64,000 nucleotides of DNA from a virus. Shown in pieces: positions 1,552 to 59,134 of the stretch. The DNA lies in the IMG/VR virus record IMGVR_UViG_3300044958_000668, positions 19,102 to 83,101 of that record; one strand, 5' to 3'. The stretch's first letter is position 1. The number at the start of each line of letters is the position of its first letter. The notes under the pieces were generated by a model, which saw nothing but the letters and a program-made list of their open reading frames with translations, was not told where the DNA came from and made no database searches. The translations under genes and the position numbers were made by a program.

Positions 1552-4284
1552 TTATATTCCCACTATTGTAAAGCCTTCATCGTTTATATCTTTCAAAAGC
1601 TTTTCCTCTGCCTTGGAAGGCTCATGCTTTATTTCAACTTGTTCCGGTTTAGCCATGACGACGAGTCTGCCATCTGCTGCTTTTTCAGGTAGCTCCGAAC
1701 GATTTCGTTTGGTCGGACTCTGAAAAACGTGACTGCTAAATCCGGGATCAGGTCGATTGATCCTCATTCTAAGAAAGTTACCTTGGCGGAATTCTCCGTC
1801 CCAATGCTCTATTTCTTCCTTAAATCTAACAAAATCATCTTCCCACATCGTCACCAGTCTTGTGTTAAAATTTTCATCTTGAACAGTAAAAACATAATAA
1901 GGATTTCCCTTTTTAGAAAGCCTCTCCTGTAATGATGACTCCTTTTTAGGAAGCCCTTTTTTATCCAAGCTTACTATCTGACATTCAATTGGTGCCCAAA
2001 GCAAGGTTGATTCCTCATCAAAACGGTCAAAAGTCATTCCGCCTTTATAGTCAGGGCTGAACTCTATAGGATGCTGCCATGCGAATCCATAATACATCGA
2101 TTCTGCAATGCCTAGCAACTCGTTGTAAACATTTTCAAATCCCGTGTCGATTTCTCCAGAAGGCATAAAATCAGCAAGAGTGATTGGCAGATCAGAATCT
2201 TTCTTCTTCTTCAAAGATTCGACGTTTCTCTTGTACTTCTTTCCAATCTTTAAAATGTCTTCCAAATCATCTTTTAAGTGTTGGAAATTAAAATTCTCAA
2301 ATTCAAATTCAGAAATGAAGAAATCTTTCTTAGGCAAATCTAATAAACCGCTTTTCAGAATCTCTTTTAAAAAGTTTTCAGAGGAACCATCGCCCCCATT
2401 CTTGTAAAGAACGTAGTCCATCTCTTCTACAATTTTTAATTTAGATTTATCCGCACGCTTATCTCTGTCCTGACGCTTTTTTGTTTCATGTTTAAAGTAC
2501 TCCCAAAATTCATGGAGCACCTTTCTGTCTTCCTCTTCTCCGAAGCAATTTAAGGCAATCAAAGGCTTTAGAACTTTTGAATCTGTGCCAAATCTTTGCA
2601 AGAAGTCATCAAATCCACTGTATGGCTGTCCTTCCTCGATCTTATGAGAGACATCTTCCCCTATTCCCTTAATGTCAGAGAAGCCCATATAGACCAAATC
2701 ATCAACAATTTCCCAGTTCCAACCTGATTTGTTGATGTCTACCCTTTTTAGCTCTACACCATCTTTCTCTGCCTCAAGTTTGTAATCTTTAATTTTACCT
2801 GACTGGGTTTCGCATTGCAAAGTTCCACAATAAAACTCAATTGGAAAATGTGCCTTCAAGTAAAGAAGCCTAGACGAAATATAAGAATATGCGTAAGCGT
2901 GGCTTGCGTTAAATCCGTACTCTGAAAAAGCTTCCACTTGATCCCACAGTTCTTCAACTTCTTTCTTTTCCCAGCCGAGATTTGATTGCCCACGACCAAC
3001 GAACTGCTCTTTATATCGAGCAAACTCCTTAACCTTTTTCTTACTCATTGCTTTTCTGACTTTTTCGCAATGAATAAGCGGAATGTCTCCCACGACATTC
3101 AAAATTTTCATAACCTGTTCTTGGTAAACCATAACTCCATATGTTCTGCCAAGAATTGGCCTGAGAATCGGATGCAAATCTCCATCCATGTCTGGAACTG
3201 GATTACTAACAGGCTCTTGTCCTCTTTTTCGCCTGATGTACGTTTTATCCATGTCCATATTAAGAGGGCCGGGTCTGTACAGAGCAGAATAAGCAGGTAA
3301 ATCATCAAACCCTGTTACACCGCCTTTTTTAACCATCTCACGCATTCCATTAGAATCAAACTGGAAAATGCACTTTAGCTTTCCTTCATCCGCTAAAGCA
3401 ATTGCTTTAGGGTCATTCAGATAGGCAGTATCAGACCAATCGTCATCCGTGCCATCCAAAGCAGATATTGTCTTTATGTGAGGATGATTCCTTTTGACTA
3501 ACTCGCTGATGGTTACAATTCTTTTCAAATCCGTAACAACCAAGAGGTCAAATTTAATCAAACCCAAAGGGCCTAAGTCGGTTCCAGACAGCCCTTCCAC
3601 AAATGCAGAAACATAAGCGTCGTCTTTGCCCTTAACCAGTGGAACCAGTTTATTGATTCTTTGATCAGAAATGATTAGCCCACCAGCATGCATTCCCATT
3701 CCACGATTGCGATTTAAAAGCCTACGGGCAGCGTCTGCAACATCTGGATTGTCTTCGCAATATTTGCCCAATTTCTCAAATTGCTCTAAAGCTTTATCGA
3801 AAGTAAGAGTCTTGCCATCATTATCTTTCAAGCCAAGCTGAGTGGTTAGTCCTATAATTTCATTTCGATCCTTATCATGGACCTTGGCCATATCAATTAA
3901 AGAACTTTTTATTCCGTAAGTTGTGTAGTTGCCAATTGCGCAAACATTTTCTTTTCCAAACTCTTTCGGTGCCCACTCAACCTTTAGATAATCACGAACT
4001 TGAGGTAAGTAATCTATATCAATATCTGGAAACTCGCCCTGTACAGAAACTGGTGGCAAATTTATGTCGAAATCATCGACCAAGTCTAAAAGATAAGCAA
4101 TTAAAAGATTGTTTTCATTGTTTTCAAATTTAGCTTTTTTAGAATGAAGATCTACAAAATACTCATGTTCCGCCTGAGCATCAAGCTCTTTAAGCTCCTC
4201 TCTTAATCGCTCTTTATATTCAGAAGAATCTAAGCCCTTTTTGGACATTCCTTCCACGCAAAGTTTTAGTAGTTGATCTCTCAT
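1552..4284 (-). CDS. dnaE: DNA polymerase III alpha subunit, C-terminal half (split gene)
   Basis: This 910-aa protein carries the catalytic palm of a bacterial-type replicative polymerase. FPDIDIDYL at residues 85-93 supplies the first two metal-binding aspartates and LIKFDLL near residue 246 the third. It continues through fingers, a helix-hairpin-helix segment (IKGIGEDVSHKI) and a C-terminal OB-like domain near residue 790. It lacks the PHP domain and the GPGRGS loop, which are encoded by the separate gene at 8803-10462. Residues 1-80 repeat the kind of segment that normally precedes the palm (YKERLREEL). The pair together should form one polymerase. No SD is visible, but a TATAAAT box sits 6 bases before the ATG. 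Confidence 0.93.
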   Translation of the reverse strand: MRDQLLKLCVEGMSKKGLDSSEYKERLREELKELDAQAEHEYFVDLHSKKAKFENNENNLLIAYLLDLVDDFDINLPPVSVQGEFPDIDIDYLPQVRDYLKVEWAPKEFGKENVCAIGNYTTYGIKSSLIDMAKVHDKDRNEIIGLTTQLGLKDNDGKTLTFDKALEQFEKLGKYCEDNPDVADAARRLLNRNRGMGMHAGGLIISDQRINKLVPLVKGKDDAYVSAFVEGLSGTDLGPLGLIKFDLLVVTDLKRIVTISELVKRNHPHIKTISALDGTDDDWSDTAYLNDPKAIALADEGKLKCIFQFDSNGMREMVKKGGVTGFDDLPAYSALYRPGPLNMDMDKTYIRRKRGQEPVSNPVPDMDGDLHPILRPILGRTYGVMVYQEQVMKILNVVGDIPLIHCEKVRKAMSKKKVKEFARYKEQFVGRGQSNLGWEKKEVEELWDQVEAFSEYGFNASHAYAYSYISSRLLYLKAHFPIEFYCGTLQCETQSGKIKDYKLEAEKDGVELKRVDINKSGWNWEIVDDLVYMGFSDIKGIGEDVSHKIEEGQPYSGFDDFLQRFGTDSKVLKPLIALNCFGEEEDRKVLHEFWEYFKHETKKRQDRDKRADKSKLKIVEEMDYVLYKNGGDGSSENFLKEILKSGLLDLPKKDFFISEFEFENFNFQHLKDDLEDILKIGKKYKRNVESLKKKKDSDLPITLADFMPSGEIDTGFENVYNELLGIAESMYYGFAWQHPIEFSPDYKGGMTFDRFDEESTLLWAPIECQIVSLDKKGLPKKESSLQERLSKKGNPYYVFTVQDENFNTRLVTMWEDDFVRFKEEIEHWDGEFRQGNFLRMRINRPDPGFSSHVFQSPTKRNRSELPEKAADGRLVVMAKPEQVEIKHEPSKAEEKLLKDINDEGFTIVGI

Positions 4285-7524: not shown

Positions 7525-8223
7525 TCATCTCATGTTCATATAGCTTTTCATGGCGTCAGGCATTCCATCTGGAAGTCTTCTTTCACTGTGTTTCGATCTT
7601 AATCTTTCGAGTGGACCCATTTCGTCATCCATGCCCTCTTCGTCGTCTTCCATGTCTTCGTCGTCAGCATCCATGTCCATTTCGTCGGCATCCATGTCTT
7701 CGTCGTCGGCATCCATGTCTTCGTCGTCAGCATCCATGTCTTCGTCGTCAGCATCCATGTCTTCGTCGTCAGCATCCATGTCTTCGTCGTCAGCATCCAT
7801 GTCTTCGTCGTCATCCATGTCATCTTCAGTGCCCATGGGAGGACCAACCGCTTCGTTTTTATTTTGCATAAATGCATCAAAGCTTTCTGGCCATGTTTTT
7901 GCCTCTTTGCCGCTGGCATCTGTGTCTGGACTGTAGATTAAGTTTTTGTCGCCATCGTCTCCAAGTCCTTTTTCTTTGCCACCATCTGCAACTTGCATCC
8001 CAGGGTCTTTACCAGCAGCTTTGTATGGTGCAGGCTTAGAAGTTTTACTTCCAGCTACGTCTTCCATACCTTTTCCATCATCCTTTAACTTACGACCAGC
8101 CTGAGACTTCTCTGGAGAAGCTGGGGTTGGACCGTCATAGTCAGCAACTTTTTTAGTGCTTGCCTTTTCTCTCGTCTTGCTTCTAGAGTCTATATACTCG
8201 TTCCAAGTTTTCCAATTGTTCAT
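7525..8223 (-). CDS. Acidic repeat protein (DDEDMDA repeats)
   Basis: This 232-aa protein starts MNNWKTWNEYIDSR, related to the short N-terminal motif of other proteins here. It continues as a Lys/Gly/Pro-rich low-complexity region and then carries a run of seven-residue DDEDMDA units (about residues 135-188), before a short basic C-terminus. The region is extremely negative; such tracts mimic DNA, bind basic proteins or bind cations. AGGAG precedes the ATG. No family is assigned; a packaged or scaffold-like role is inference. Confidence 0.65.
   Translation of the reverse strand: MNNWKTWNEYIDSRSKTREKASTKKVADYDGPTPASPEKSQAGRKLKDDGKGMEDVAGSKTSKPAPYKAAGKDPGMQVADGGKEKGLGDDGDKNLIYSPDTDASGKEAKTWPESFDAFMQNKNEAVGPPMGTEDDMDDDEDMDADDEDMDADDEDMDADDEDMDADDEDMDADDEDMDADEMDMDADDEDMEDDEEGMDDEMGPLERLRSKHSERRLPDGMPDAMKSYMNMR
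7655..7818 (-). repeat. 21-bp tandem coding repeat
   Basis: About seven copies of a 21-bp unit (TCTTCGTCGTCAGCATCCATG on the plus strand) with a few G/A changes and one variant copy. The unit length is a multiple of three and encodes DDEDMDA, so copy number can change without shifting the frame. Confidence 0.9.
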
Positions 8224-8231
8224 CTTTTCTC

Positions 8232-8414
8232 CTAATGTGCATTTTCTGCTATTAGCATTATAATTAATAAAATGAGATAAAGCCCTAGGCCAGTGCCGAA
8301 AAATACAATGCCTAAAACAAATCCTAGTCTAACTGTTGTAGGGTTGATGTTTAAGTCTCTTCCCAATCCTGAACAGACACCAAACAAAACCTTATTGCCA
8401 AGATCTCTCTTCAT
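8232..8414 (-). CDS. PspC-domain membrane protein
   Basis: The 60-aa product matches the PspC domain: VLFGVCSGLGRDLNINPTTV followed by RLGFVLGIVFFGTGLGLYL and a second hydrophobic run. PspC family proteins are inner-membrane proteins of the phage-shock response. This minimal version has little beyond the domain. AGGAG lies six bases before ATG at 8414. It is 8 bases upstream of the acidic-repeat gene and probably cotranscribed. Its phage role might be membrane stabilisation during infection, which is inference. Confidence 0.85.
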   Translation of the reverse strand: MKRDLGNKVLFGVCSGLGRDLNINPTTVRLGFVLGIVFFGTGLGLYLILLIIMLIAENAH

Positions 8415-8480
8415 AATATACTCCTGTTTTATATTTAGTGTATTATGTGCTTTTTTTTTAAAGCATAAAGTATATATTGT

Positions 8481-8801
8481 ATGCAATTCAGAAAATGGCT
8501 AATAAAAGAAATGGCTCACATATCAATTGATGAACCAATCGACATTGGAGATCAAAAAAATGTATCTATGATTGATATGCAGTTTGAACTATATCCCGAC
8601 ATGACCCAGACAACTCTAGCTCACTGGATAGTCAACGGATTTGCCGCCAAAGTCCCAAATAGCAATTATTATATAGTTTTTGACGGAAAAACAGGAAAAG
8701 CAAAGGTGTCCGATTCGACAGAGAACAAAATGCAAGTTCCTGGCGAATGGCACAAAATGGCTTATATGTCGAGCGATATGCCAGCTTGGAAATCTGCGTG
8801 A
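8481..8801 (+). CDS. Hypothetical protein with MQFRKWL N-terminal motif
   Basis: A 106-aa protein starting MQFRKWLIKEMAHIS. There is no SD, but TATATATT at 8471-8478 is three bases from the ATG, so the mRNA would be nearly leaderless. The N-terminal segment resembles those of the genes at 18659, 62249 and others. The remainder looks like a small alpha/beta domain (FAAKVPNSNYYIVFDG). Function unknown. Confidence 0.6.
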   Translation: MQFRKWLIKEMAHISIDEPIDIGDQKNVSMIDMQFELYPDMTQTTLAHWIVNGFAAKVPNSNYYIVFDGKTGKAKVSDSTENKMQVPGEWHKMAYMSSDMPAWKSA

Positions 8802-8802
8802 G

Positions 8803-10462
8803 TTATTGATCTGACCAAACACGATCAGTTCTTCCTAGAAAAGGCGCAGACTCAATTGCTTCGTCCATGGGAATGGGATCAATATTCGAAAAAGATGGTT
8901 CTCCCGAAAATCTAAACTTAATTTGTTTTCCGCCACGAGCAGGACTCAAAAATCTAGAAAACAATAGACCATGCTTGATTGGATCGACATCCGTTATCCC
9001 AAGACAGTAGCAACTAAGAGCACCAACTGCCGAGCCTCTTCCGGGACCGACTGCCGAAGAACCGCTGGAGCCATATGTCTCAAAGTACCATCTTCTGGCT
9101 TCATCGGTCATCATTTTTTGGATCAAAAAGTAAGAGGAAAAGCCTTTTTGGCAAATTAAAGAATATTCTTCTTCTATCCTATCCAAATATTCTTTATTCC
9201 TAGGAATTTTCCTCTTAACAACCCCTTCTATGATTGATTCCTTAAACTTAATGTCAGATTCGCTAAATGCAGGAAGTTTGATAGTTCTATCAAGCTTTAC
9301 GCCTTTTGCTTTTTCGCAAAGGGCAACGGTATTTAACTTGGCCTGCTTAAGTATTTCGTAATCTATTACATCCTTGTAATCACTTTCCCACTTCGCATTT
9401 ATCTCTTCTTCTGACTTCATCCATAAGTTTGAATCTTGCAATTCGAACATATCAGCCATGTCATTCTGTGCCAACGCTTGTTCGATTTGCTTCATGGTTC
9501 TTCCTGTTTGAACCATAATCATCTTTCTCTGCATTTCGCTGTCTTCTTTGAGACAGTAGTGGCAATCATTTGTAACAATAATTGGTAAATTATATTTTTG
9601 GCTGGCTTTTATTATAAACTCATCATAAGGCTTTTGTTTCGAGAAGTCTAAAAGCATTATTTCTAGATAGAAGTTTTCTCCGAACATGGCCATATATTTT
9701 TCGACCATCTCCATAGCTGGACCTTCGCCACCCACATCAAAAGCTTGTCCAATTTCACTGTTATAACAGCAAGAAGTGAATATAATTCCTTCTTTATATT
9801 GCATGAGGACTTCGTGATTGACTCTGGGTTTCCTGTAGAAACCCCTCGTCCAACCCCAAGATGAAAGAGTAACCAGATTGCTGTAGCCTGTTTCATTATA
9901 GGCTATGGCAAGCAGATGATTCGATTTTCTTAACTTGGCTTGCTCTTCTTGCGTACCCAGACCTCTATTGAATTCCGTCATAGAAGGAATAGTGGTCGTG
10001 TCAGGCTGCAACTGATTTACATAAAGCTCACAAGCAAATATAGGCTCTAGGTTGTTTTCATCGCATGCTCTAATCTGGCGTGGGACAGAACCCATCGCAC
10101 CATGATCTGATATGCATAAAAACTTTTGATTTACCTGTTTAGAATATTTTCCATATTCTTCAACAGTGGCGTATCCATCTAAGCACAAACTCCACAGTTT
10201 CTTGTGGTGTAGACTATATCATCACCCCGAAGGGTGTCGGACGCTCTGGCCTGTAATTAAGAGGACTGAACCTCTCAGGTAGTCGTTGCACGTTCCAAAA
10301 GTGTACTTCTGGCTTCGCTCAGGATTGCCCTCGACTTTACGTTAGGGTTTCCCTGAATTCATCCGATTTGCATGCAAGATTTCTCTCACATGGCCCCAGT
10401 TAGTTAAGGCTGAAATCAGTATGTCTGTGTAGATGTTCAAAACCTACAATCAGGTCTTTCAT
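8803..10462 (-). CDS. dnaE: DNA polymerase III alpha subunit, N-terminal half (PHP domain), intron-interrupted
   Basis: The gene is two exons, 10407-10462 and 8803-10183, joined by removal of a group I intron; together they give exactly 479 codons and read FEHLHRHTDFSLLDGYATV across the joint. AAAGGAG precedes the ATG at 10462. PHP metal-site motifs are present: HLHRH (residues 10-14), ISDHG, FACEL and NDCHY. Near the C-terminus is the polymerase loop GPGRGSAVGALS, then ITDVDPIKHGLLFSRFLSP. The protein stops about 48 residues later, just where an intact enzyme would enter the catalytic PD-x-D-x-D motif, which is encoded by the gene at 1552-4284. The two must associate to give an active polymerase. 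Confidence 0.92.
10184..10406 (-). ncRNA. Group I self-splicing intron in dnaE
   Basis: A 223-nt intervening sequence without a reading frame. It has the classic conserved elements on the minus strand: a P-like element (AATTCAGGGAAACC), a Q-like element (AATCCTGAGC), R (GCAACGACTA) and S (GATATAGTC) forming P7. The 5' exon ends in GCCU, which pairs with the internal guide GGGC to give the U-G pair at the splice site, and the intron ends in G. Removal restores an unbroken PHP motif and reading frame. It is a minimal intron with no homing endonuclease inside. Confidence 0.93.
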
Positions 10463-10535
10463 ATTTTACTCCTTTAGATTCAAGATACTTTTCAAATTCG
10501 CCAGCGTCATATTTGCCATTATTTAATCTTTCCAT
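10437..10535 (-). CDS. Possible 32-aa overlapping protein
   Basis: A short frame (starts MERLNNGKYDAGEFEKYLE) overlaps the last codons of the gene upstream and the first 26 bases of dnaE exon 1. Its composition is protein-like and its stop lies just inside exon 1, but it has only a weak ribosome binding site. It may instead be a chance frame. Confidence 0.3.
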   Translation of the reverse strand: MERLNNGKYDAGEFEKYLESKGVKYERPDCRF

Positions 10536-11038
10536 TGTTTCCATTTGCCCGTCTTTTCATTTTTAAAGTAAAAAGCAGCTTTTGGATCTTGTGTGTCTAC
10601 CTTGAAGAAAGGCTCAGATCCTTTTCTGTTTCTGCACCACTTGTTTTCAACAGGCGACTCCAGCATGGCTTCACGATTTACAATGAACAGCCTTTTGTAA
10701 TCGCCCCCGATTATCATCATATGAGTGGCATGCTCTTCTGCTTTGTCCCTTTTGCGGTAAGGGAAGTCCATTGTATGAAATTTGAAAGGAACGTCAAACC
10801 ATTTTGTTCCCCAATCTTGCTTTATCTCGGCCTCAATTCTCCATTCACCGATACTCTTTTTTGAATGCGTTCCAGCAACATCCCATATCTTTTTAAATTT
10901 TCCTCTGCTCTCGTCTAAGTTCTCTGATATTTTTTTGAATCCACGTTGTTGTAAAAATTCCGTTGCCACTAGCTTTGCAGGTCCATCATACTTTTCGTAC
11001 CTATCTTTGCAAAACCTTATATCATTAGGTTTTGGCAT
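10523..11038 (-). CDS. Hypothetical protein, possible nuclease-like fold
   Basis: 171 aa from the ATG at 11038, which overlaps the clpP stop as TGATG with AAGGA upstream. It is basic and aromatic-rich. The segment EWRIEAEIKQDW near residue 65 contains an E-x-K that could be part of a PD-(D/E)XK core, followed by a hydrophobic strand (HMMIIGGDYKRLFIV). I cannot confirm a nuclease. The position between clpP and dnaE places it in the same operon. Confidence 0.6.
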   Translation of the reverse strand: MPKPNDIRFCKDRYEKYDGPAKLVATEFLQQRGFKKISENLDESRGKFKKIWDVAGTHSKKSIGEWRIEAEIKQDWGTKWFDVPFKFHTMDFPYRKRDKAEEHATHMMIIGGDYKRLFIVNREAMLESPVENKWCRNRKGSEPFFKVDTQDPKAAFYFKNEKTGKWKQWKD

Positions 11039-11751
11039 CAAATACATTCCTTAAACTTAGAGCATCTCCTTATCTTTGCTATAGTTTCGAAACCTTTGGT
11101 TCCCAAAATCCCATCAGCAAAGCCGTAGTACACTGCCTCTTCCGCAGACATGTACCAATCACTCTTATCCTTGAGCTTTTTATCTATCCAAGATATAATT
11201 CGTGATTCTGTGTATTCTTTCTCTAAAAAGAACTCTCCAATCTTACAGCGTCTAGCAAATATTTGCAACATACGTTTCATATATTTATTATTCATTTCCA
11301 CAGCGGAGTTTACAGCTATGGAGTTATCATGCAAAGCTATAGAACCATGGTGAATCATGAATTCACAATTAGGCGTTAAAACTCTTTTATCAGCCGCTTG
11401 CAACAAAATTCCACTCATAGAAGAAGCTTGTGCATAAGTAACAAACGTGACTGATGAGTTTGCAAATCTAATTGCATCAAACATCGCTAACCCATCGCAC
11501 CAACTTCCGCCAGTAGAATGCATGTGTACCAGTACGTTTTCAGAATTCTGATTCTCTAAAACAGATAAATTTTTATTAAATCTAACTGCCATTCTGTAAT
11601 CTACACCTGGTTCGGAATCGTCAGACAAAGGGCTTAAAGAACTGTGCAGAAAGAGTTCTCTTGTATAGTGATTGATATTGTGAGAGTGAACATCGCTGAG
11701 AAGCTGTTCAATTTCCGACTTTTTACGCAAACTATTTTTCGTTGTAGCCAT
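11038..11751 (-). CDS. clpP: ClpP-like serine protease
   Basis: 237 aa from ATG at 11751, six bases after GGAGG. It has the ClpP/crotonase fold landmarks: VLVHMHSTGGSWCDGL, the nucleophile serine in QASSMSG, the histidine in FMIHHG, and SAEEAVYYGFADGIL near the end, which matches the usual A-x-x-YGLID-x-(I/V) region carrying the aspartate. In tailed phages such proteins act either as prohead proteases or as free ClpP homologues. With tmRNA and the PrkA-type AAA+ gene nearby, a proteolytic role in infected cells is also possible. A long leader with its own TATA box separates it from spoVR. Confidence 0.85.
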   Translation of the reverse strand: MATTKNSLRKKSEIEQLLSDVHSHNINHYTRELFLHSSLSPLSDDSEPGVDYRMAVRFNKNLSVLENQNSENVLVHMHSTGGSWCDGLAMFDAIRFANSSVTFVTYAQASSMSGILLQAADKRVLTPNCEFMIHHGSIALHDNSIAVNSAVEMNNKYMKRMLQIFARRCKIGEFFLEKEYTESRIISWIDKKLKDKSDWYMSAEEAVYYGFADGILGTKGFETIAKIRRCSKFKECI

Positions 11752-11782
11752 CGCAACCTCCAAAAAAGTCTTTATTTAATTC

Positions 11783-11796
11783 ACTATTATATATCT
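11783..11796 (-). promoter_or_regulatory. TATA-type promoter for clpP-dnaE
   Basis: ATATATAATAGTG on the minus strand lies about 33 bases before the clpP ATG. It matches the TATATAATAGT boxes upstream of 6827 and 19051, but here it leaves room for a leader with a strong SD. Confidence 0.5.
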
Positions 11797-11862
11797 GATT
11801 TATATTCTATTTATCTTTTTTAACTTCCTTCCTAGGAAAATATTAAAACTATTAACTTCAAA

Positions 11863-11903
11863 AATGTTCATAAGTCCTTTTATTTAAAGAACTTATGAAC
11901 ATT
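11863..11903. terminator. Inverted repeat, probable terminator
   Basis: A 13-bp perfect stem (AATGTTCATAAGT with its complement) and a 15-base loop, followed on the minus strand by TTTTTGAAG. It lies between spoVR and the clpP promoter and probably ends the prkA-yeaH-spoVR transcript. Confidence 0.7.
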
Positions 11904-11951
11904 ATGATCTTTAGAGATCCCATTCTCAGCCTCAGATTGTTTATCACTCAT
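11880..11951 (-). CDS. Possible 23-aa peptide
   Basis: MSDKQSEAENGISKDH and seven more residues, ending within the terminator loop. Its ATG overlaps the end of the preceding tiny frame as ATGAGTGA. It could be a translated leader or chance. There is no clear SD. Confidence 0.22.
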   Translation of the reverse strand: MSDKQSEAENGISKDHNVHKFFK

Positions 11952-12000
11952 TGCTTACATCCCTTTTGACTTTCTTTAATGCTTTTAGCAGGTCGAACAC
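11944..12000 (-). CDS. Possible 18-aa peptide after spoVR
   Basis: GTG start directly after the spoVR stop, reading M-FDLLKALKKVKRDVSNE, an amphipathic basic helix. It overlaps the next tiny frame. Too short to judge by composition; listed because the 230-base gap between spoVR and clpP is otherwise empty of genes. Confidence 0.2.
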   Translation of the reverse strand: MFDLLKALKKVKRDVSNE

Positions 12001-12001
12001 C

Positions 12002-13594
12002 CTATAGCGATTCGTATTCTTCTCTGGTCATGACGGCCACATCGCCATCCTGTGTTCCTACGCACCAATAAACTATTTCTTCGTCATCGGAACCAGTAGT
12101 AGACAACACCACATCATTCCCCCAAATGAATCTTAAAGACTTTAAAGTGGGGATTAAATCCGGCTCATACAAGCCTCTGCCATCGGAGTTGTGCTCTAGC
12201 AACATGACTCCCTTGCCTTGGTGGTTTGGATCTACTAGATATATCTCTGGCAAGCCTCCATTCAAATGTCTTTTGATCAACTTACTTTTGATTGACTTGT
12301 GGTCACGATTTTCAATCTTGTACTCGCCATTTGGATATCTTTTCCATTCAAAAAACTCATATTTATTACAAAAATCTTCTGTGAAAAACTCCATCAAAGC
12401 TGTTAGGTCATTATATTGCTTTCGAACATCAAATATTTTATCTCTGCCTAGACCTAGATTCTTATCCCAATTTTCTTTTTCTACTATATTGCTACATTCT
12501 TCGTACTCTTGGCCAAACTTGCCTTTATTCCACCTCTCTTCGATATCCAACAAAAGACAGAATCCTAGCTTATAAGGATTCATCGAATACTTGCCTCCGA
12601 GAACGCCCATCTTGTGAGCGGAGTATTCAACGATGCCGCAGTCTTCGCCTGTCTGCCCTAAGCCACAAAGTCCCATTTCACACATTACTGTATAATCTGT
12701 AAAGCTTGCCCATCCTTCGTTGAGCATTTTTGTAACTCTTTGAGGCGAAAAATATAAACTTTCCTCATACATCATGGAAAGAATGTCTGACTGCCAAGGT
12801 TTCAAAGGAGCACTATCTCTTAAAAATCCCATAATGTCTTTAGTTGGATTTTTAAATATTCCAATTTGCTGTGCGGCCTCATCTCGACTAATCTTTTCTT
12901 TTTGGCCATCAATCCATCTTTTAGGATTGATATAAGGCTCCATGTAATCACGGTCAGAATTTACACCTAACCTTTTAGGCTGCTTGTAGGTTCTCTCATC
13001 TTGTATGACACGATCTTTTACAACCTTTTCTTCCCAAGCCTTCGCTGAGTCTATCAAAGTTTCAATCGAGCAGCAGTGGTCGATAAATTCTGTAACTTTC
13101 TCCACGCCCCAACGCTGCATGTATTTTCGGATGCGGGTTCCATGATTAGCAAGTTGGTTCATCATATTTTGCGAGGTGGGCGCAAAATATATGTTGTTCT
13201 TAAAAAAGTCATTGTGGCCTAAAGCGTGAGCAATAACCGTAACATTATCCACCAGCGTATTTGAATCCAAACAGTAGATGTAACAAGGATTGGTATTAAT
13301 AACCATTTCATAAATTCGGTGCATCCCATGCTCGTAACCTTTTTGAAGGCTTTCGTATTCCATTCCCCATTTCCAGTGTGGGTAACGAACTGGAAATCCT
13401 CCGTAAGATGCAACTTCACTTATTTCATCGTAAGTCAGCATCTGAACAACGGTGGGATAAAAATCGCAGCCGAAGTCTTTAACTGCCTTGAATATGTCAG
13501 GCATAATCTTCTTAAGCTCACTAGGAAGCTGAACGCCTGGCACAGTGCTGTCACCGAGAAGCAGAGAAGAGCCTCTGAAAAATTTACTAGACAT
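12002..13594 (-). CDS. spoVR: SpoVR family protein
   Basis: 530 aa, close to the usual 500-520 of the family. Family-typical segments include FYPTVVQMLTYDEISEVASY, WGMEYESLQKGY, MVINTNPCYIYCL and HALGHNDFFKNN with conserved histidines. SpoVR was named for a Bacillus spore-cortex defect; in many bacteria its gene (ycgB in E. coli) accompanies prkA/yeaG and yeaH, a set linked to stationary-phase and nitrogen-stress responses. The biochemical role is not established. Here it follows yeaH by five bases, so the arrangement of the bacterial operon is kept. AAGGA precedes the ATG. Confidence 0.93.
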   Translation of the reverse strand: MSSKFFRGSSLLLGDSTVPGVQLPSELKKIMPDIFKAVKDFGCDFYPTVVQMLTYDEISEVASYGGFPVRYPHWKWGMEYESLQKGYEHGMHRIYEMVINTNPCYIYCLDSNTLVDNVTVIAHALGHNDFFKNNIYFAPTSQNMMNQLANHGTRIRKYMQRWGVEKVTEFIDHCCSIETLIDSAKAWEEKVVKDRVIQDERTYKQPKRLGVNSDRDYMEPYINPKRWIDGQKEKISRDEAAQQIGIFKNPTKDIMGFLRDSAPLKPWQSDILSMMYEESLYFSPQRVTKMLNEGWASFTDYTVMCEMGLCGLGQTGEDCGIVEYSAHKMGVLGGKYSMNPYKLGFCLLLDIEERWNKGKFGQEYEECSNIVEKENWDKNLGLGRDKIFDVRKQYNDLTALMEFFTEDFCNKYEFFEWKRYPNGEYKIENRDHKSIKSKLIKRHLNGGLPEIYLVDPNHQGKGVMLLEHNSDGRGLYEPDLIPTLKSLRFIWGNDVVLSTTGSDDEEIVYWCVGTQDGDVAVMTREEYESL

Positions 13595-13599
13595 ATTTT

Positions 13600-14832
13600 T
13601 TATCCTTGAATCTTCTTTTCTATTAAACCCGGTTTTCCTAATAAATCAATAATTGCTTCTCTGATTTTTACGTCTCTTTCTTCCTCTGAAATTTCAGAAG
13701 CAGGCCCCCAACTAGATACATTGTCTTCTGAGTCAGACATTATATCTGTGGTCACAACGTTAGAAGGAGGGCTTTCCGACATTAAAACATTCTCATCTAC
13801 ATATTCTTTCAAGCTTCCCTTGTATCTCCAAGGCAAAATTTGAGCTATTCCTATAAAGTTGACAATATCTTCTGTGAATTGATCTTTTATTATTTTTGAA
13901 AAGACTTCGTTGTCATTGTCCCAGTTTTCCCCGTCAGTAAAATAAATTACGTACACATTCCACTTTTCAGGAGGAAACCTATTTTCCATCTGCTTTGAAA
14001 TTAATTTCAAAGCAGATGAACATGTTGTTCCACCACCATATCGGTATTTATAGAATCTTTTCTCATCAACTTCCGAAGCTTCTGTGTCGTGCCAAATATA
14101 ACATCTTTCGACACGTTTATAAAACTGCCTTATCCATAAATCTATCCACCAAGACATATCGCTAACAATATCACACTTTGTCTGGTCCATTGAAGCAGAT
14201 CCATCACGAGCGAAAAATATAACAGCATTGCTCGATGGAACTTTTATTTCTTTATATCGCCTATACCTGCGATCACTGTTTATCGGCATGATCATTTTTA
14301 CAGGCTCCTTCATGCCGGGAATGGCATGGAGTTTTTCCAATTCTCCAGAAGCAGCCATTCTCTTCATGGCTTGCTGCATAGTTCTTCGATTGTGCCTTAA
14401 GGATTCTGGACCTTGTAATGAAATATCATTGTATTTAATTTTAATTTCATCATAAGTTTGATTTGGCTTTGGCTTTAAATCAGGAAGTTCTAATTCATCC
14501 TGAAGAAATTTTAAAACATCTTCCAAGTCTATGGATATAGTAACGCCATCAGATTGTCCTTGTCCTGCCTTGCCCTTGCCTTTTCCATCGCCTGGATCAT
14601 CTCTCCCAACTACGTCTCCAGGTTTTCCACCGCCACGTCCGACTCCCTCGCCACTATTCCCATAAACAATATGTGGTATGTCTATTTTTGGGATTGTGAT
14701 GTTTATCTTTTTCCCATCTCCACGAGTTCTAAATATAGATCCGTTTTTAATCCTCTTTTGAAGATCTTTTCTTATTCGGCCAGAATAAACATCTCTAAAT
14801 CTTTTGTGGTCTTCTTCAATACGTCTTGGCAT
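13600..14832 (-). CDS. yeaH: YeaH/DUF444 family protein with VWA-like domain
   Basis: 410 aa from ATG at 14832 with AAAGGG upstream. The N-terminus MPRRIEEDHKRFRDVYSGR is characteristic of the UPF0229/YeaH family. A Gly/Lys/Asp-rich linker follows, then a von Willebrand A-like domain with FFARDGSASMDQTK as the metal-ion-dependent adhesion motif (D-x-S-x-S) near residue 220 and VYVIYFTDGENWDND as its second part. YeaH is the usual partner of the PrkA kinase. It lies between prkA and spoVR on the same strand. Confidence 0.93.
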   Translation of the reverse strand: MPRRIEEDHKRFRDVYSGRIRKDLQKRIKNGSIFRTRGDGKKINITIPKIDIPHIVYGNSGEGVGRGGGKPGDVVGRDDPGDGKGKGKAGQGQSDGVTISIDLEDVLKFLQDELELPDLKPKPNQTYDEIKIKYNDISLQGPESLRHNRRTMQQAMKRMAASGELEKLHAIPGMKEPVKMIMPINSDRRYRRYKEIKVPSSNAVIFFARDGSASMDQTKCDIVSDMSWWIDLWIRQFYKRVERCYIWHDTEASEVDEKRFYKYRYGGGTTCSSALKLISKQMENRFPPEKWNVYVIYFTDGENWDNDNEVFSKIIKDQFTEDIVNFIGIAQILPWRYKGSLKEYVDENVLMSESPPSNVVTTDIMSDSEDNVSSWGPASEISEEERDVKIREAIIDLLGKPGLIEKKIQG

Positions 14833-14907
14833 TACTGAACCCTTTAGTAGTCTAAAATAAAGAGCCACCCCCACAAAGAAGTGAAGAGTGGCTCATCCTC
14901 TTTATAT

Positions 14908-17022
14908 CTAGGAGTCGTTAGCTACATCGCCTCTTGCAAATATAGAACCAACATAATCAAGAACATCCGTTGCGGATTTTTCGTTATATCCATGATGCTT
15001 AATCAAGCGGGACTTAATTGCATCAATTTTTTCTTGAACGTCTGGATCAACTACAGAGGCACCAAGAGAATTTAAAGCAGAAAGCTTTATGTGATCTCTA
15101 GTGTCTTCGAATAGTTTGGTTTGCAAAGCCTTTTGCAACTGTGGGTTACTATCCCACTTAAAGGTTTTGCTTTCATGGGCAAGATTTCCAATGAAAGCTG
15201 CCAAACTTCTGCGGAAGTCGTCAGAGCCAACTTCTGGAACATCAATTTTTTCTTCAATCGATCTCATCAACTGCTCATCTGGCAACTGTTCCTGTCCTGT
15301 GTACGGATTGGTCACTTTTGCCTTTTTAATGTATGCCATCACGTTATCGACATAATTAGTACAAAGTCTAATAATGGCATTCTCATCACCAACAAGTGCT
15401 TTTTGAACTTCTGTTTTCAAAATCTCATCTAGCTCTTTCATAGCAAAATCAACACAAGTGTTAAACCTACTTGCGTCCTCTTGATTAGAGATCAAAGAAG
15501 ATCCGTCAAGTCCTTCACGAATTTCATTCAGCACCATGAATGGATTGATGTAATCATGGTGAGAACTCAAACAGTTAGAAATCTTGTCCTGAACATATCG
15601 AGCAGAGACTCCGCCAGACATCCCTTCATTTGGATATTTATCTCGCATTTCTTTTACTGAATCTTCAGTCCAGCCAGGCATTGATTTTCCATCATAAAGC
15701 TTTGACTTCTCTACCAAAGAAATTTTGCCATCTTTATCATCTTGCAATCTTGTCAAAACCGCCCAAAGAGCGGCAATCTCTAAAGTATGAGGAGCAACAT
15801 GCTGAGGAACTTTACTTTTGCCGTAATCGTTCTGATAAACTTTAAGTTCATCAGAAAGACTTAAAAGATATGGAACATCGATCTTCACAGTTCTATCACG
15901 CAAGGCTTCCATGCTTTGATTGTTCTTGAGTTTTTCATACTCAGGATTATTTGTATGCCCAATTAAGACTTCATCGACCCCAATCTGAGCGAACTTTTTC
16001 GGCTTTATGCTTCGCTCTTGAGACGCTCCCAAAAGATCGTACAAAAACTCTTGAGCAAGCTTCAGCATCTCAATAAATTCAACAACACCACGATTCCCCA
16101 CACAAAACTCACCATCAAAGTTGAAAGCTCTAGGATCACTATCAGATCCAAAGTGAGGAAGCTTCGCATAATTGATGTCACCAGTTAGCTCAGTAGCATC
16201 TTGATTCTTTTCGTCTTTAGGTTGAAAAGTTGCAATCCCGCATCTGTCTGCTTCAGAATAAACTTTTCTCACAACAACAATGTGCTCGTCAACAACCTTT
16301 CTCCAATCACCCTTGTGTATTTTCAAAAGTTCATCCATAAACTTTTTACATCTCGGATTAAGCTCCCCGTCGCAACGGAGTTCGTATGTTTGCTCTCCTT
16401 GAGGGTGATTCCCAAACTCTGCCTTTACTTCATTCAAATCTTTGAGAAGTTCTGCTCGTACTTTCATGGGCACTAACTTAATGGGATCGTCATGCATCGG
16501 ACAATCATCAGAATCATTTGTATAAATTCCATCGGACCCTGTTGGAAGGTTTTTCCAACGGTATGTATACCAAGCACCTTGGTCTGTTTGAGAGTATTCT
16601 TCCATGCCTCTTTTGATAAGTCGGCAAATTGTAGACTTAGACGAACCTACTGGCCCGTGGAGAAGAAGAATTCTTTTTTCGGTTCCGTACCAACCGGCAG
16701 CACCCCGAATAAATTTAACCAATTCATGTAGAGTATTGTCCAAACCATAAATTGGAATTTCATCATTATCAAAGAAGTTATAATGGATATAGGTTTTTCG
16801 ATACTTTTTAAACTCAGAAGTTCCAGCATTCATGATCATATCATAAACTCGCTGGTAAGCTGATCGGACTAAGCCTGGACTTTTATAACAACTATCAATG
16901 TACTCAGAAAAAGTCATTTCCTGATTAAGTGTTTGAAATTTACCAGTATCAAAAAATCCAGCAAGCTTGTCTAGCTTAGAAGTGCCTTCATGCTCTTCCT
17001 TGTTGAAATTTTCATTTTCCAT
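14908..17022 (-). CDS. prkA: PrkA-type AAA+ serine protein kinase
   Basis: 704 aa, about 60 more than E. coli YeaG (about 644). The N-terminus holds the conserved MTFSEYIDSCYKSPGLVRSA segment; a Walker A motif HGPVGSSKST is at residues 122-131; the family's C-terminal kinase-like region follows (SGGVSARYVQDKISN, INPFMVLNEIREGL). PrkA proteins are AAA+ ATPases reported to phosphorylate a small set of proteins, and some act as Lon-like proteases. The gene heads a three-gene set with yeaH and spoVR. AGGA sits about eight bases before ATG, with a TTATACTCTTTTATATT promoter-like stretch some 70 bases upstream. Confidence 0.94.
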   Translation of the reverse strand: MENENFNKEEHEGTSKLDKLAGFFDTGKFQTLNQEMTFSEYIDSCYKSPGLVRSAYQRVYDMIMNAGTSEFKKYRKTYIHYNFFDNDEIPIYGLDNTLHELVKFIRGAAGWYGTEKRILLLHGPVGSSKSTICRLIKRGMEEYSQTDQGAWYTYRWKNLPTGSDGIYTNDSDDCPMHDDPIKLVPMKVRAELLKDLNEVKAEFGNHPQGEQTYELRCDGELNPRCKKFMDELLKIHKGDWRKVVDEHIVVVRKVYSEADRCGIATFQPKDEKNQDATELTGDINYAKLPHFGSDSDPRAFNFDGEFCVGNRGVVEFIEMLKLAQEFLYDLLGASQERSIKPKKFAQIGVDEVLIGHTNNPEYEKLKNNQSMEALRDRTVKIDVPYLLSLSDELKVYQNDYGKSKVPQHVAPHTLEIAALWAVLTRLQDDKDGKISLVEKSKLYDGKSMPGWTEDSVKEMRDKYPNEGMSGGVSARYVQDKISNCLSSHHDYINPFMVLNEIREGLDGSSLISNQEDASRFNTCVDFAMKELDEILKTEVQKALVGDENAIIRLCTNYVDNVMAYIKKAKVTNPYTGQEQLPDEQLMRSIEEKIDVPEVGSDDFRRSLAAFIGNLAHESKTFKWDSNPQLQKALQTKLFEDTRDHIKLSALNSLGASVVDPDVQEKIDAIKSRLIKHHGYNEKSATDVLDYVGSIFARGDVANDS

Positions 17023-19065: not shown

Positions 19066-19344
19066 ATGGGACGTAAAAAAACGCTAATCAACAAGAAAAA
19101 CAAGAAAAGATTAGAAAGCTGTGCTTTTTGCGAATGTGCAGACTATGAAATTTTAGATGTCCACAGAATAAACGAAGGAGCAGACGGAGGAAGATATACC
19201 AGTCACAACTCCTTGACTGTCTGTGCAAACTGCCATCGGAAAATTCATTCTGGAAAAATAAAAACATTCAGAAAGCATCTAAGCACTGGCGGATATGTCC
19301 TTCATTGTGAAATCGAAGGACAAGAACAGTTTTTGAAACTATGA
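19066..19344 (+). CDS. HNH endonuclease
   Basis: 92 aa. CAFCECADYEILDVHRI, GGRYTSHNSLTVCANCHRK and the following IH form a complete HNH motif with two CxxC zinc pairs. It is short and has no visible extra DNA-binding domain. Free-standing HNH nucleases in phages are homing enzymes or packaging/repair nucleases. It diverges from the gene at 18659-19051 with only 14 bases between the two ATGs. Confidence 0.88.
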   Translation: MGRKKTLINKKNKKRLESCAFCECADYEILDVHRINEGADGGRYTSHNSLTVCANCHRKIHSGKIKTFRKHLSTGGYVLHCEIEGQEQFLKL

Positions 19345-30822: not shown

Positions 30823-31098
30823 TCAATCTCTGGCTGTGACTTGTAGCAGATGATAACCAAACTGCGTCTTCACTGGTCCTTGCACTTCGTTCAGGGGGCA
30901 GCTAAATACAACTTGATCAAACTCAGGAACCATTCTTCCTCTTCCAAAAGATCCTAGCCCACCACCAGTTTGACCTGATGGGCATTTTGAATAATCTTTG
31001 GCGGCTTGTCCAAAATCCGACCCAGATTCAATCTCTTTTTTCAGTTCTAAACATCGTGCCTCTGAGTCTACCAAAATATGTCTTGCAGTCGCTTGCAT
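30823..31098 (-). CDS. ppiC: Parvulin-type peptidyl-prolyl isomerase
   Basis: 91 aa, the length of free-standing PpiC (93 aa). The core ARHILVDSEARCLELKKEI, FGQAAKDYSKCPSGQTGG, LGSFGRGRMVPEFDQVVF and GPVKTQFGYHLLQV matches E. coli PpiC throughout, with the active-site Cys, Met and Phe/His pairs kept. It is cytoplasmic with no signal peptide. It would speed proline isomerisation in folding of phage or host proteins. Confidence 0.93.
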   Translation of the reverse strand: MQATARHILVDSEARCLELKKEIESGSDFGQAAKDYSKCPSGQTGGGLGSFGRGRMVPEFDQVVFSCPLNEVQGPVKTQFGYHLLQVTARD

Positions 31099-56772: not shown

Positions 56773-57927
56773 TTATTGGTTGTAATTAACTAGAATCACA
56801 TCTCCAGACTCAGGGGCAGTATTAAATGTTATAATGGCTCCTGATAAAGTGTAATCATTTGCACCACCAGTATTCTGGATGATGCCATTTAGATAAATAC
56901 AATCAGTATTTGACAAAGGTGTTGCCGCCATTGTGAAGTCTGTATTTGATCCATTAACTGTTCCTGTAGGAGTTTCTCTTGTTACCCAAGTATCTGTAAC
57001 ATATGAATCCGCAATGGTAAAGGCTGCACTTGAACTCATTGTCAGGTCGCCCCCAACTGCGTTGTAGGTAGTGTCAGATGCACCTTGTCCAACAAGCAAT
57101 GCAGCAGAAGCTCCATCGGCAAGAGAAAGCCCACTAGAACCTAGAGCGAGAGTTGATCCATCAAGATTAACTTCAATATCATCAGCATTTACGGTAATTC
57201 CACCCGAAGTTGCAGCACCAATATTAACATCACCGCCAGATGCTGCTAGACCGCTTCCTGCACCGACTGAAATACCGCCAGCACCAAGGTTTAGTCCCGA
57301 ATTAGTATCCAGATTTATTGTGATGTCGTTTGCATTTGCTGTTAATCCACCGCTTGTTGCGGCAACAACATCTACTGTTTCAGCAGTCTTCGTAAGACCA
57401 GCACCAGCTACAAGATCGCCTAAAAGTTGTCCGGTTTGAGAGAATTTTTCAAAAGTCAGAGCGGTTGTATCTAGAGTGATAGATCCGGTTGTAGTTAGCA
57501 ACCAGCCAGTGTCTGCGTTTGAAGTTCCTTCTTCAATGAATGCAAACATGCCAGTTGTAACTTCGGCACTTGTGTTTGCGTCTGAAGATCTGACAGGAGC
57601 ACCAGATGCGGTTACATCATAAATACCGTTTTGGTTACCAGTTGATTGATTCTTAAGAAGAATTCTATCGTCTGCTACAAGAGTCACTCCGTCTACGGTT
57701 TGACCTGCTGTGAATGCTGAAGCAAAAGTTCCATTAGACGTAGTTGCTACCCTAATGCTTTCTTTAAAATCAATTACACCACCTGCAACTTGAGCATCAA
57801 CATATGCTTTCGTTGCAGCTTCCTGATTTGCTGTCGGATCTGTAAGATTGACAATTTTATTGGTTTGCAAGTCAAGATTGCCAGTAAATCTTAACTGACG
57901 AGCACCATCTGTTTGTGTTACGGCCAT
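56773..57927 (-). CDS. Tail-fibre-like protein, paralog of 57980-59134
   Basis: 384 aa with AAGGAAGG upstream. N-terminal module (TQTDGARQLRFTGNLDLQ, TDPTANQEAATKAYVDAQ), a long Gly/Ala/Ser/Asp repeat region (GGLTANANDITINLDT, GGITVNADDIEVNLDG) typical of phage fibre shafts, and a C-terminal beta domain (PTGTVNGSNTDFTMAATPLS). It is near-identical over about 420 bp to the next gene and shares its C-terminal domain with 59220-59987. Probably a trimeric fibre. Confidence 0.85.
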   Translation of the reverse strand: MAVTQTDGARQLRFTGNLDLQTNKIVNLTDPTANQEAATKAYVDAQVAGGVIDFKESIRVATTSNGTFASAFTAGQTVDGVTLVADDRILLKNQSTGNQNGIYDVTASGAPVRSSDANTSAEVTTGMFAFIEEGTSNADTGWLLTTTGSITLDTTALTFEKFSQTGQLLGDLVAGAGLTKTAETVDVVAATSGGLTANANDITINLDTNSGLNLGAGGISVGAGSGLAASGGDVNIGAATSGGITVNADDIEVNLDGSTLALGSSGLSLADGASAALLVGQGASDTTYNAVGGDLTMSSSAAFTIADSYVTDTWVTRETPTGTVNGSNTDFTMAATPLSNTDCIYLNGIIQNTGGANDYTLSGAIITFNTAPESGDVILVNYNQ

Positions 57928-57979: not shown

Positions 57980-59134
57980 TTATTTGGCATAATTAACTAA
58001 TAAAACATCTCCGGTTTCAGGAGCACTATTGAAAGTGATTGAGTTTGTTGAAATGGTGTAATCATTTGAACCGCCAACATTTTGAAGTATACCATTTAAA
58101 TGGACACATTCTGTTCCACTTAAAGGCGTTGCTGCCAACGTGTAAGAAGCATTGCTTCCATTTACAAGTCCTGATGGAACTTCTCTGTAAACCCAAGTAT
58201 CTGTAACATATGAATCCGCAATGGTAAAGGCTGCACTTGAACTCATTGTCAGGTCGCCCCCAACTGCGTTGTAAGTCGAATCAGATGCACCTTGTCCAAC
58301 AAGCAATGCAGCAGAGGCTCCATCGGCAAGAGAAAGACCACTAGCACCTAGAGCGAGAGTTGATCCGTCAAGATTTACTTGGATATCATCAGCATTTACG
58401 GTAATTCCACCCGAAGTTGCAGCACCAACATTAACGTCACCGCCAGATGCTGCCAAACCACTTCCTGCACCGACTGAGATACCGTTAGCACCAAGGTTTA
58501 GTCCCGAATTAGTATCTAGATTTATTGTGATGTCGTTTGCATTTGCTGTTAATCCACCGCTTGTTGCGGCAACAACATCTACTGTTTCAGCAGTCTTCGT
58601 AAGACCAGCACCAGCTACAAGATCTTCTAAAAGTTGTCCAACTTCACTGAATTTTTCAAAAGTCAGAGCCGTTGTATCTAAGGTGATAGTTCCAGTTGTA
58701 GTTAGTAACCATCCGGTTTTTGCGTTTGAAGTTCCTTCTTCTACAAAACAAAACAGTCCACTTGTAACTTCTGCACTTGTGTCTGCATCTGATGACCTAC
58801 TTGGAGCACCAGTAGCTTGTACTATGTAGATTCCGTTCTCGTCTCCTGATGACTGGTTTTTGATTAAAATTCTATCATTAGTTGCAAGAGTCACTCCGTC
58901 TATAACGTCGTTATTTTCAAAATCACTAGCTAGAGTTCCTGTTGCCGTAGTTGCAACTCTGACACTTTCTTTAAAATCAATTACACCACCTGCAACTTGA
59001 GCATCAACATATGATTTCGTAGCAGCGTCTTGATTTGCTGTCGGATCTGTAAGATTGACAATTTTATTGGTTTGCAAGTCAAGATTACCAGTAAATCTTA
59101 ATTGACGAGCACCATCTATTTGTGTTACGGCCAT
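57980..59134 (-). CDS. Tail-fibre-like protein, paralog of 56773-57927
   Basis: 384 aa with AAGGAGGG before ATG. Same length and plan as the gene downstream: N-terminal module, shaft repeats, then a C-terminal beta domain (PSGLVNGSNASYTLAATPLS) ending FNSAPETGDVLLVNYAK. The central DNA (58201-58620) nearly equals 57001-57420, so duplication or gene conversion is recent; the ends differ more. The two may act as alternative receptor binders. Confidence 0.85.
   Translation of the reverse strand: MAVTQIDGARQLRFTGNLDLQTNKIVNLTDPTANQDAATKSYVDAQVAGGVIDFKESVRVATTATGTLASDFENNDVIDGVTLATNDRILIKNQSSGDENGIYIVQATGAPSRSSDADTSAEVTSGLFCFVEEGTSNAKTGWLLTTTGTITLDTTALTFEKFSEVGQLLEDLVAGAGLTKTAETVDVVAATSGGLTANANDITINLDTNSGLNLGANGISVGAGSGLAASGGDVNVGAATSGGITVNADDIQVNLDGSTLALGASGLSLADGASAALLVGQGASDSTYNAVGGDLTMSSSAAFTIADSYVTDTWVYREVPSGLVNGSNASYTLAATPLSGTECVHLNGILQNVGGSNDYTISTNSITFNSAPETGDVLLVNYAK

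Follow-up and report, generated by a model that had tools for sequence, protein, structure and literature searches.

A PrkA-DUF444-SpoVR gene set that recurs, complete, in a group of large phages

Introduction

The proteins PrkA, YeaH and SpoVR are conserved across many phyla of bacteria, and their joint biochemistry is unsettled. Why would a phage carry genes for all three, and are they the phage's own? These questions are raised by a 64,000-nucleotide stretch of viral DNA (positions 19,102 to 83,101 of the 83,101-bp IMG/VR record IMGVR_UViG_3300044958_000668; hereafter, the window). In the window, genes for a PrkA-type AAA+ protein, a DUF444 (YeaH/YhbH) protein with a von Willebrand factor A (vWA) domain, and SpoVR lie side by side, and a ClpP-like gene adjoins them. 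An earlier note, made from the sequence alone, had described the four genes as full-length neighbours in phage DNA, and all four open reading frames (ORFs) were confirmed on the minus strand with Pfam. Their scores exclude chance matches. The window's PrkA matches PF08298 (E = 1.3e-79) and PF06798 (E = 6.4e-70), with 268 and 236 bits against a cut-off of 25; the DUF444 protein matches PF04285 (E = 2.8e-69; 234.6 bits, cut-off 27); SpoVR matches PF04293 (E = 2.9e-106; 356 bits, cut-off 27); and the ClpP-like protein matches PF00574 (E = 1.2e-22). PrkA has the Walker A string GPVGSSKST, and the DUF444 protein has the string DGSASM of the metal-ion-dependent adhesion site (MIDAS). The SpoVR_C domain scored 22.2 bits in the window's SpoVR, below the Pfam cut-off of 27.6, and all three proteins were under the NCBIfam equivalog cut-offs (PrkA 201 vs. 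576, DUF444 306 vs. 388, SpoVR 172 vs. 679). Judged by sequence, the trio is homologous to the E. coli genes but not orthologous to them.

Results and Discussion

The trio is complete wherever the contig leaves room

We scanned IMG/VR with the window's PrkA and obtained 133 stretches, all of them relatives. The best 80 were kept, and with the 595-kb huge-phage record LR756511 they gave 81 PrkA-anchored loci. DUF444 was found in 79 of these and SpoVR in 76. At the incomplete loci (L063, L076, L077, L080 and L084), the contig ends inside or just past the preceding gene. In other words, PrkA, DUF444 and SpoVR occurred together at 76 of 76 loci with room for them, always in that order and on one strand, which is the outcome of the search for co-occurrence in viral genomes that the earlier note had proposed. 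The gaps between the genes reach 2.5 kb, so some loci have room for extra genes. A scan anchored on SpoVR instead (best 80 of 94 relatives) gave a similar picture: both partners were upstream in 78 of 80 cases, and the other two contigs start too late, so that every locus with room (78 of 78) has both. Some of the loci are nearly identical to one another, and two (L007 and L008) are the window's own phage, so these counts overstate the number of independent cases.

We also looked for the trio starting from the capsid gene (best 80 of 368 relatives; these came from an alignment query, as a single-sequence query had matched only itself). Among 11 contigs inspected, three had a PrkA match (G003, G015, and a 60-residue piece in G014). 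This is a weak test, because contigs that lack a PrkA match may be fragments. G015, which we met via its capsid gene, encodes the whole trio plus ClpP, arranged as at the other loci.

The contigs are viral

Could this be bacterial chromosome that was binned as virus? The earlier note had named bacterial flanking DNA as something that would undo its claim. Instead, the window encodes phage replication proteins (UvsX, a gp32-type single-stranded DNA-binding protein, DnaB-type and other helicases, and parts of the DNA polymerase III alpha subunit) as well as proteins with tail-fibre and virion-type matches. A 245,522-bp IMG/VR contig (L008) has an identical PrkA with matching flanks. Across 11 large trio-bearing records, a T4-type Gp23 capsid gene is present on 7 and a terminase is above the cut-off on 6; large records without either may be fragments. 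The phage proteins also lie on their own branch of the trees (see below). A host flank is plausible for one other record, that of Enterobacter phage LAU1, which begins with a host-like YeaG-YeaH. For the window's phage group, the capsid genes on the same contigs refute such an artefact, which we consider scarcely credible. Bacterial contamination was rejected because capsid and terminase genes share contigs with the trio.

The genes are under strong selection and are probably inherited with the polymerase

To count invariant residues, we used rows with a single tblastn piece, at least 85% coverage and no stop codon; intein-bearing SpoVR genes fall outside the 53 rows used for that family. In PrkA, the Walker A lysine and serine and both E315 and E318 are invariant (82/82 rows). 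So are the MIDAS residues of DUF444 (70/70) and residues H73, E96, H123, H127, E278, N292 and E293 of SpoVR (53/53 phage rows). Among close pairs, the median ratio of nonsynonymous to synonymous substitution rates (dN/dS) is 0.036 for PrkA (25 pairs), 0.053 for DUF444 (18 pairs) and 0.071 for SpoVR (12 pairs), with pairs that are not independent of each other. These low ratios and invariant residues reject the idea of decaying cargo. Together with the completeness of the set at all loci with room, they bear out the earlier note's view that the genes are full length with their key motifs kept.

Does the trio travel with the rest of the phage genome? All six genes that we compared were present at 32 of the 81 loci, or 25 phages after thinning. 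In these 25 phages, pairwise distances for the trio genes are correlated with each other (r = 0.81-0.90) and with those for the N-terminal part of DnaE (r = 0.85-0.90), vs. 0.45-0.57 for the neighbour HldE and 0.42-0.45 for a neighbouring zinc-ribbon gene. The contrast lies in the size of r and not in significance, because every pair of genes, including those with HldE and the zinc ribbon, beat 500 of 500 permutations. On average, PrkA is 67% identical among these phages and DnaE 58%. Our best reading of these sequence comparisons is that the trio behaves like core replication genes and would be inherited with the replicative polymerase. The earlier note had put the set inside a replication operon. 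Parts of DnaE are indeed nearby, but "operon" is too strong a word, as it rests solely on those neighbours.

SpoVR also carries inteins. In-frame inserts are present at 22 of 76 loci (L016-L020, L022, L024, L026-L028, L030, L032, L041, L047, L053, L054, L057, L065, L066, L071, L072 and L086): the second site alone is occupied at 8, the first alone at 6, and both at 8. In the four genes that we examined with Pfam, LAGLIDADG and Intein_splicing domains were found, with the splicing domain above the cut-off in L026, L016 and L022 and below it in L086. The first site (14 loci) reads ...N / C...HN / T... and directly follows the invariant N100. The second (16 loci) ends with ...HN / S; a pattern for its start, ...NEGWA / C, which falls within the invariant NEG motif, matched 10 of them. 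Inteins favour conserved sites of indispensable proteins. A planctomycete SpoVR (L112) has an intein as well, with its splicing domain just below the cut-off.

Phages probably captured the trio three times

For the comparison to bacteria, we used the nearest matches to the window's PrkA (the best 80 of at least 577 relatives). Among the matches listed, the nearest bacterial PrkA proteins are 51-54% identical to the window's and come from many phyla. Within these best 80 loci, 44 have an operon with the same gene order, and 29 have PrkA alone, in part because of contig ends. PrkA from the kept phage loci is 61-72% identical to the window's, apart from two entries at 100% that are the same phage. 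We built trees for PrkA, SpoVR and DUF444 from rows thinned at 80% identity (171, 130 and 106 rows became 71, 74 and 73). These were made with a quick method, with the Shimodaira-Hasegawa-like approximate likelihood ratio test (SH-aLRT) as the sole measure of support (no bootstrap), and the bacteria in them are the nearest 80 matches only. As to the phylogeny against bacterial sets that the earlier note had suggested, each of the three trees separates the phage rows from the bacteria beside them by a single branch (SH-aLRT of 99, 100 and 99, respectively). Recent acquisition from a host is not supported, given this one phage branch and given that the best bacterial PrkA listed is 54% identical, vs. 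61-72% among phage loci.

Other phages have other versions of the trio. Three huge phages near 640 kb (LR756502, LR745206 and LR756504) encode an E. coli-type PrkA; these three proteins are 61-65% identical to YeaG of the Enterobacter phage LAU1 record and 24-25% identical to the window's PrkA. When we scanned IMG/VR with an E. coli-type PrkA (best 80 of 121 relatives), the full trio was found at 65 of 80 loci and at 55 of the 57 with at least 4 kb downstream; at L358 and L362, SpoVR was not within reach. Gp23 was above the cut-off in 6 of 12 large contigs of this group. In LR756502, SpoVR is 244 kb from PrkA. Thermus phages have a third, very divergent trio, for which an IMG/VR scan with their PrkA confirmed no relative. 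Bacillus phage CM1 has a DUF444 gene with no PrkA match. Because the window's group, the E. coli-type group and the Thermus phages carry distinct trios, the sequences indicate at least two captures by phages, and probably three. That phages captured the trio independently at least twice and have kept it together under strong selection would imply that it works as a unit and matters during infection.

A possible AAA+/vWA/metalloprotein machine

What might the trio do? We give roughly even chances to the reading that it is a single phage remodelling machine, which would serve protein quality or protein remodelling during infection. In this machine, PrkA would be the AAA+ motor, the DUF444 protein would be its vWA/MIDAS adaptor, and SpoVR would be a partner that binds metal and has a fold like that of metallopeptidases; the PrkA-DUF444 pair would act on SpoVR or through it. 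ATP hydrolysis in an AAA+ ring would pull or twist the vWA protein, so that a target is remodelled or loaded with metal, by the logic of NorQ-NorD and CbbQ-CbbO. The machine might handle phage or host proteins alongside the phage's ClpP and transfer-messenger RNA (tmRNA). We infer the three-protein complex, the motor role of PrkA, the binding of metal by SpoVR and the physiological purpose alike.

Several observations fit this reading. The earlier note had called PrkA a kinase, which is doubtful, given that PrkA from B. anthracis has negligible kinase and protease activity according to the portions of the report available (PMC13001217). PrkA would read better as an AAA+ motor: an AAA+ fold with a Walker A motif and a partner gene for a vWA/MIDAS protein are both present, as in MoxR-type AAA+/vWA pairs. 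In one of these, NorQ remodels the NorD linker and allows a metal to be inserted (PMC13036017, in part). Of the first 19 rows that an AlphaFold model of SpoVR (pLDDT, the predicted local distance difference test, 82) matched in VIA, 17 are titled peptidase, leukotriene A4 (LTA4) hydrolase, BepA or ACE2, and most of them are M1-type aminopeptidases; dipeptidyl peptidase III is also among the 19. The other two are a putative lipoprotein (ranked first) and a putative hydrolase (3cmn). The M1 peptidases, LTA4 hydrolase, BepA and ACE2 presumably share the gluzincin fold. The invariant H123-x3-H127 lies in one helix and E278/N292-E293-G294 in a second, and both groups would be suitable as predicted metal ligands.

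A number of results weigh against this reading. The B. anthracis protein is monomeric until ATP is added and its enzyme activity is negligible, as far as the available portions of that report go (PMC13001217). Foldseek searches with the models of the window's PrkA (mean pLDDT 81) and of SpoVR returned nothing at E = 0.001. In VIA, the PrkA model matches AAA+ domains, with CbbQ first (Z = 11.4) and NorQ at 10.9 alone and 10.2-10.7 in complexes with NorD, and these are tied with ClpA (11.3) and RuvBL (11.1), so the nearest AAA+ class of PrkA is a tie. The SpoVR rows have Z scores from 10.7 down to 5.4 over 150-216 residues, a range that the tool calls common. The glutamate of HExxH is missing from SpoVR, and for this reason we do not class it as a gluzincin peptidase: across 51 rows, residue 124 is alanine in 27 and valine in 24 and is never glutamate, while H123 and H127 are kept in all 51. 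Of the 56 loci that extend 5 kb downstream, only 31 have an adjacent ClpP-like gene, and the class of this protein is uncertain (63.9 bits vs. 228 for the NCBIfam ClpP model, and 60.5 vs. 120 for a head-maturation model). A tmRNA is within 9 kb downstream at only 9 of 51 loci and is not reached at the rest. Finally, the trio is constant in its own phage group, but some phages related to that group by their capsid gene lack it. The 532,729-bp contig G014 has a related capsid gene but, by Pfam, neither SpoVR nor AAA_PrkA.

In G014 (also L343), we noticed two tandem 127-aa ORFs, one of which matches residues 578-637 of PrkA at 50% identity; no full PrkA was found. In sequence searches of the PDB, PrkA matches 9xip, 9xiq and 9xir, which are absent from the fold-search rows. 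The same searches returned no relative of DUF444 and, for SpoVR, a single chance row (E = 0.5). No weak Pfam matches to metallopeptidases were found in 48 members of SpoVR.

Proteostasis, assembly, host control or cargo

With modest confidence, we favour proteostasis over virion assembly and host reprogramming. A ClpP-family gene is somewhere on 10 of the 11 large trio records, and a tmRNA above the Rfam cut-off is on all 11, with tags that end in LAA, MAA or VAA where seen. In the window, the trio adjoins ClpP and is 5.5 kb from the tmRNA. Among ClpP-like proteins, the catalytic serine and histidine are kept in 29 of 29 and the aspartate in 28, with glutamate in the other. In the E. coli-type group, 10 of 80 loci have HSP70; for example, a full-length HSP70 (DnaK) gene in LR745206 (L168, 1495-3369) is 4.6 kb from the trio. 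SmpB was found in just 2 of the 11 large records and a ClpX-size AAA_2 protein in 5; a complete ssrA-ClpXP pathway is therefore not a constant feature of these viruses. The earlier note had suggested that ClpP is used to control protein turnover, which is possible, with ClpP as a partial neighbour. Its ClpP label agrees with the match to PF00574, but PHROGs ranks head-maturation proteases first. A bolder version, which strikes us as quite unlikely, would make the trio, ClpP and tmRNA a single virus-run island for protein rescue and turnover, with SpoVR as a gluzincin-like branch that lacks HExxH and with the bacterial stress role as the same activity. The phage tmRNA would tag stalled products, the PrkA-DUF444 motor would remodel or unfold proteins, and SpoVR and ClpP would dispose of them or mature them, which would make infection independent of host quality control.

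The ranking in PHROGs also suits a different role, in which the trio is a morphogenesis chaperone and SpoVR processes or matures a structural protein. We find this doubtful. Its support comes in part from the Thermus phages: in Lalka8 and Lalka27a, the trio lies between portal or minor head genes and the large terminase gene (TerL), which fits virion assembly and adds to the points against a remodelling machine, and in phiYS40 the trio is 1.2 kb from TerL. A role in virion assembly was also proposed for a jumbo-phage MoxR-vWA pair with a metallopeptidase domain (Iyer et al. 2021, PMC7824862, in part). On the other hand, in contig G003 the trio is far from the capsid and terminase genes (PrkA is at 39,689, Gp23 at 189,203 and terminase at 198,864; about 147 kb separate PrkA from Gp23), and what lies upstream of PrkA differs from what lies upstream of the capsid gene. 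A TATAAT is present within 160 bp upstream of PrkA at 24 of 56 non-redundant loci (7.6 expected, and at most 15 in 300 shuffles), as compared to 3 of 49 for the capsid gene (3.2 expected). This contrast hints at early, sigma70-type expression of PrkA, which would suit a phage copy of the bacterial stationary-phase or nitrogen-stress system that brings about a starvation-like, quiet host for a slow infection. In E. coli, yeaG and yeaH act in nitrogen starvation (PMC4664914, in part), but that link is genetic, not mechanistic. Also, the window's own PrkA has no TATAAT in the 160 bp upstream, and we saw neither a stress regulator nor a gene for host arrest that goes with the trio. We regard host reprogramming as unlikely, and the earlier note's proposal that the phage imposes or exploits a starvation-like state is not borne out by any of our results. 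The T4-type late promoter TATAAATA was upstream of PrkA at 0 of 62 loci, DUF444 at 1 of 61, SpoVR at 1 of 59, and the capsid gene at 0 of 52, so the timing of expression cannot be read from this promoter. Lastly, the trio might be a stress operon that phages picked up and that is useful in some infections, has no constant role, and is kept by chance linkage. Its absence from at least one large relative, and the distant SpoVR of LR756502, would be expected of such cargo. We think this very unlikely given the completeness of the set wherever there is room, the strong purifying selection, and the correlation of distances with DnaE.

Relation to known systems

The closest known system is the bacterial prkA-yhbH/yeaH(DUF444)-spoVR operon (YeaG, YeaH and YcgB in E. 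coli), which has the same three families, and in the same order at the 44 of 80 listed loci mentioned above; its PrkA is at most 54% identical to the window's among the matches listed. The phage version differs in that it forms a separate branch in three trees, lies by DnaE and often by ClpP, and often has inteins in SpoVR. In Thermus phages phiYS40, phiLo, MN1, Lalka8 and Lalka27a, the vWA protein, SpoVR and PrkA are encoded together on one strand, in the order vWA-SpoVR-PrkA (with one extra gene before PrkA in phiYS40), and PrkA is 29-32% identical to the window's. In the Lalka phages and phiYS40, unlike the window's group, the trio is beside head and packaging genes. In Thermus phages TMA and YS40_Isch, we saw matches to PrkA and DUF444 only. 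Ralstonia jumbo phage RsoM2USA encodes SpoVR (ORF28) and PrkA (ORF30), with an ORF of about the size of YeaH between them that may well be YeaH-like; their best matches are gamma-proteobacterial, and the genes are not treated as a set in the available portions of that report (PMC8504454).

The pairs NorQ-NorD, CbbQ-CbbO and RavA-ViaA resemble the phage pair in that an AAA+ motor has a vWA partner. PrkA differs from these MoxR-type proteins by its own C-terminal domain and by its third partner, SpoVR, and its matches to CbbQ and NorQ are tied with those to ClpA and RuvBL. A MoxR-vWA-metallopeptidase pair in group 2.2 jumbo phages also combines AAA+, vWA and metallopeptidase parts, but in that pair the vWA protein and the metallopeptidase are a single fusion, and MoxR takes the place of PrkA as the AAA+ protein (Iyer et al. 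2021, PMC7824862, in part).

The families themselves, scattered phage annotations of single members, and the deposited Thermus sets are already known. Among the openly licensed PMC papers listed, as represented by titles and the starts of abstracts, we found none that presents the trio as a system of phages, and a word search of the main text of four papers on huge or jumbo phages found no PrkA or SpoVR. The new aspect, which is not described in those papers, is a recurrent and complete viral cassette. The earlier note had worried that the trio might be a routine marker of a well-described phage group. It is a constant marker of its group, and Thermus records with it are deposited, but among the papers listed we found none that describes such a phage system, to the extent that titles and abstract starts reveal this. 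If the reading as a remodelling machine is correct, the known repertoire of huge phages would grow by an AAA+/vWA/metalloprotein system, and the phage trio could be a compact test bed for the bacterial set.

Gene neighbourhood and other features of the window

Coordinates of the trio and its neighbours are given in Table 1. The DUF444 ORF as listed runs from a doubtful GTG (13600-14874), but an in-frame ATG at 14832, which begins MPRRIEEDH and gives 410 aa, is the likely start. The zinc-ribbon gene is mostly directly upstream of PrkA; at some loci (such as L069, L072-L074, L079, L080 and L085), it is on the opposite strand and several kb away.

Table 1. Features at and around the trio (positions in the window)
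Feature	Position	Strand	Remarks
PrkA-type AAA+ protein	14908..17022	-	704 aa; Walker A GPVGSSKST; Pfam
DUF444/YeaH/YhbH vWA protein	13600..14832	-	410 aa; MIDAS D-x-S-x-S...T...D; Pfam
SpoVR	12002..13594	-	530 aa; invariant H73, H123-x3-H127, N292-E293-G294; Pfam
ClpP-like serine protease (or head-maturation-type relative)	11038..11763	-	Ser115/His138/Asp202 kept; frequent, not constant neighbour
Zinc-ribbon protein PF09723	17144..17512	-	relatives in 79/81 loci
174-aa protein, no assigned function	10523..11047	-	in 3/81 loci, of which two belong to the window's phage
Group I intron adjoining DnaE N-terminal part	10191..10416	-
DnaE N-terminal (PHP) part	8803..10188	-	alpha subunit split in two in the window's phage
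tmRNA, tag DKTNFAMAA	6101..6459	-
DnaE C-terminal part	1552..4284	-

Other genes and the tmRNA sit between the two parts of DnaE. The N-terminal part matches residues 21-433 and the C-terminal part residues 336-1179 of the one-piece DnaE in LR756511, so the regions of homology overlap.

Several other genes in the window caught our attention. An 84-aa PspC-domain protein (phage shock protein C family) is encoded at 8232-8486, next to an acidic protein (7525-8223) with six copies of DADDEDM; tblastn matches to the latter are on the opposite strand at 13 of 15 loci. A 91-aa parvulin-type peptidyl-prolyl isomerase (30823-31098) is near a gene for an inosine monophosphate dehydrogenase or GMP reductase, and nearby ORFs look by eye like a putative thymidylate synthase and a putative dihydrofolate reductase. 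Finally, two adjacent 384-aa proteins (56773-57927 and 57980-59134) are 84% identical over 382 residues, which suggests a likely duplication; the first of them has virion- or tail-type matches in PHROGs.

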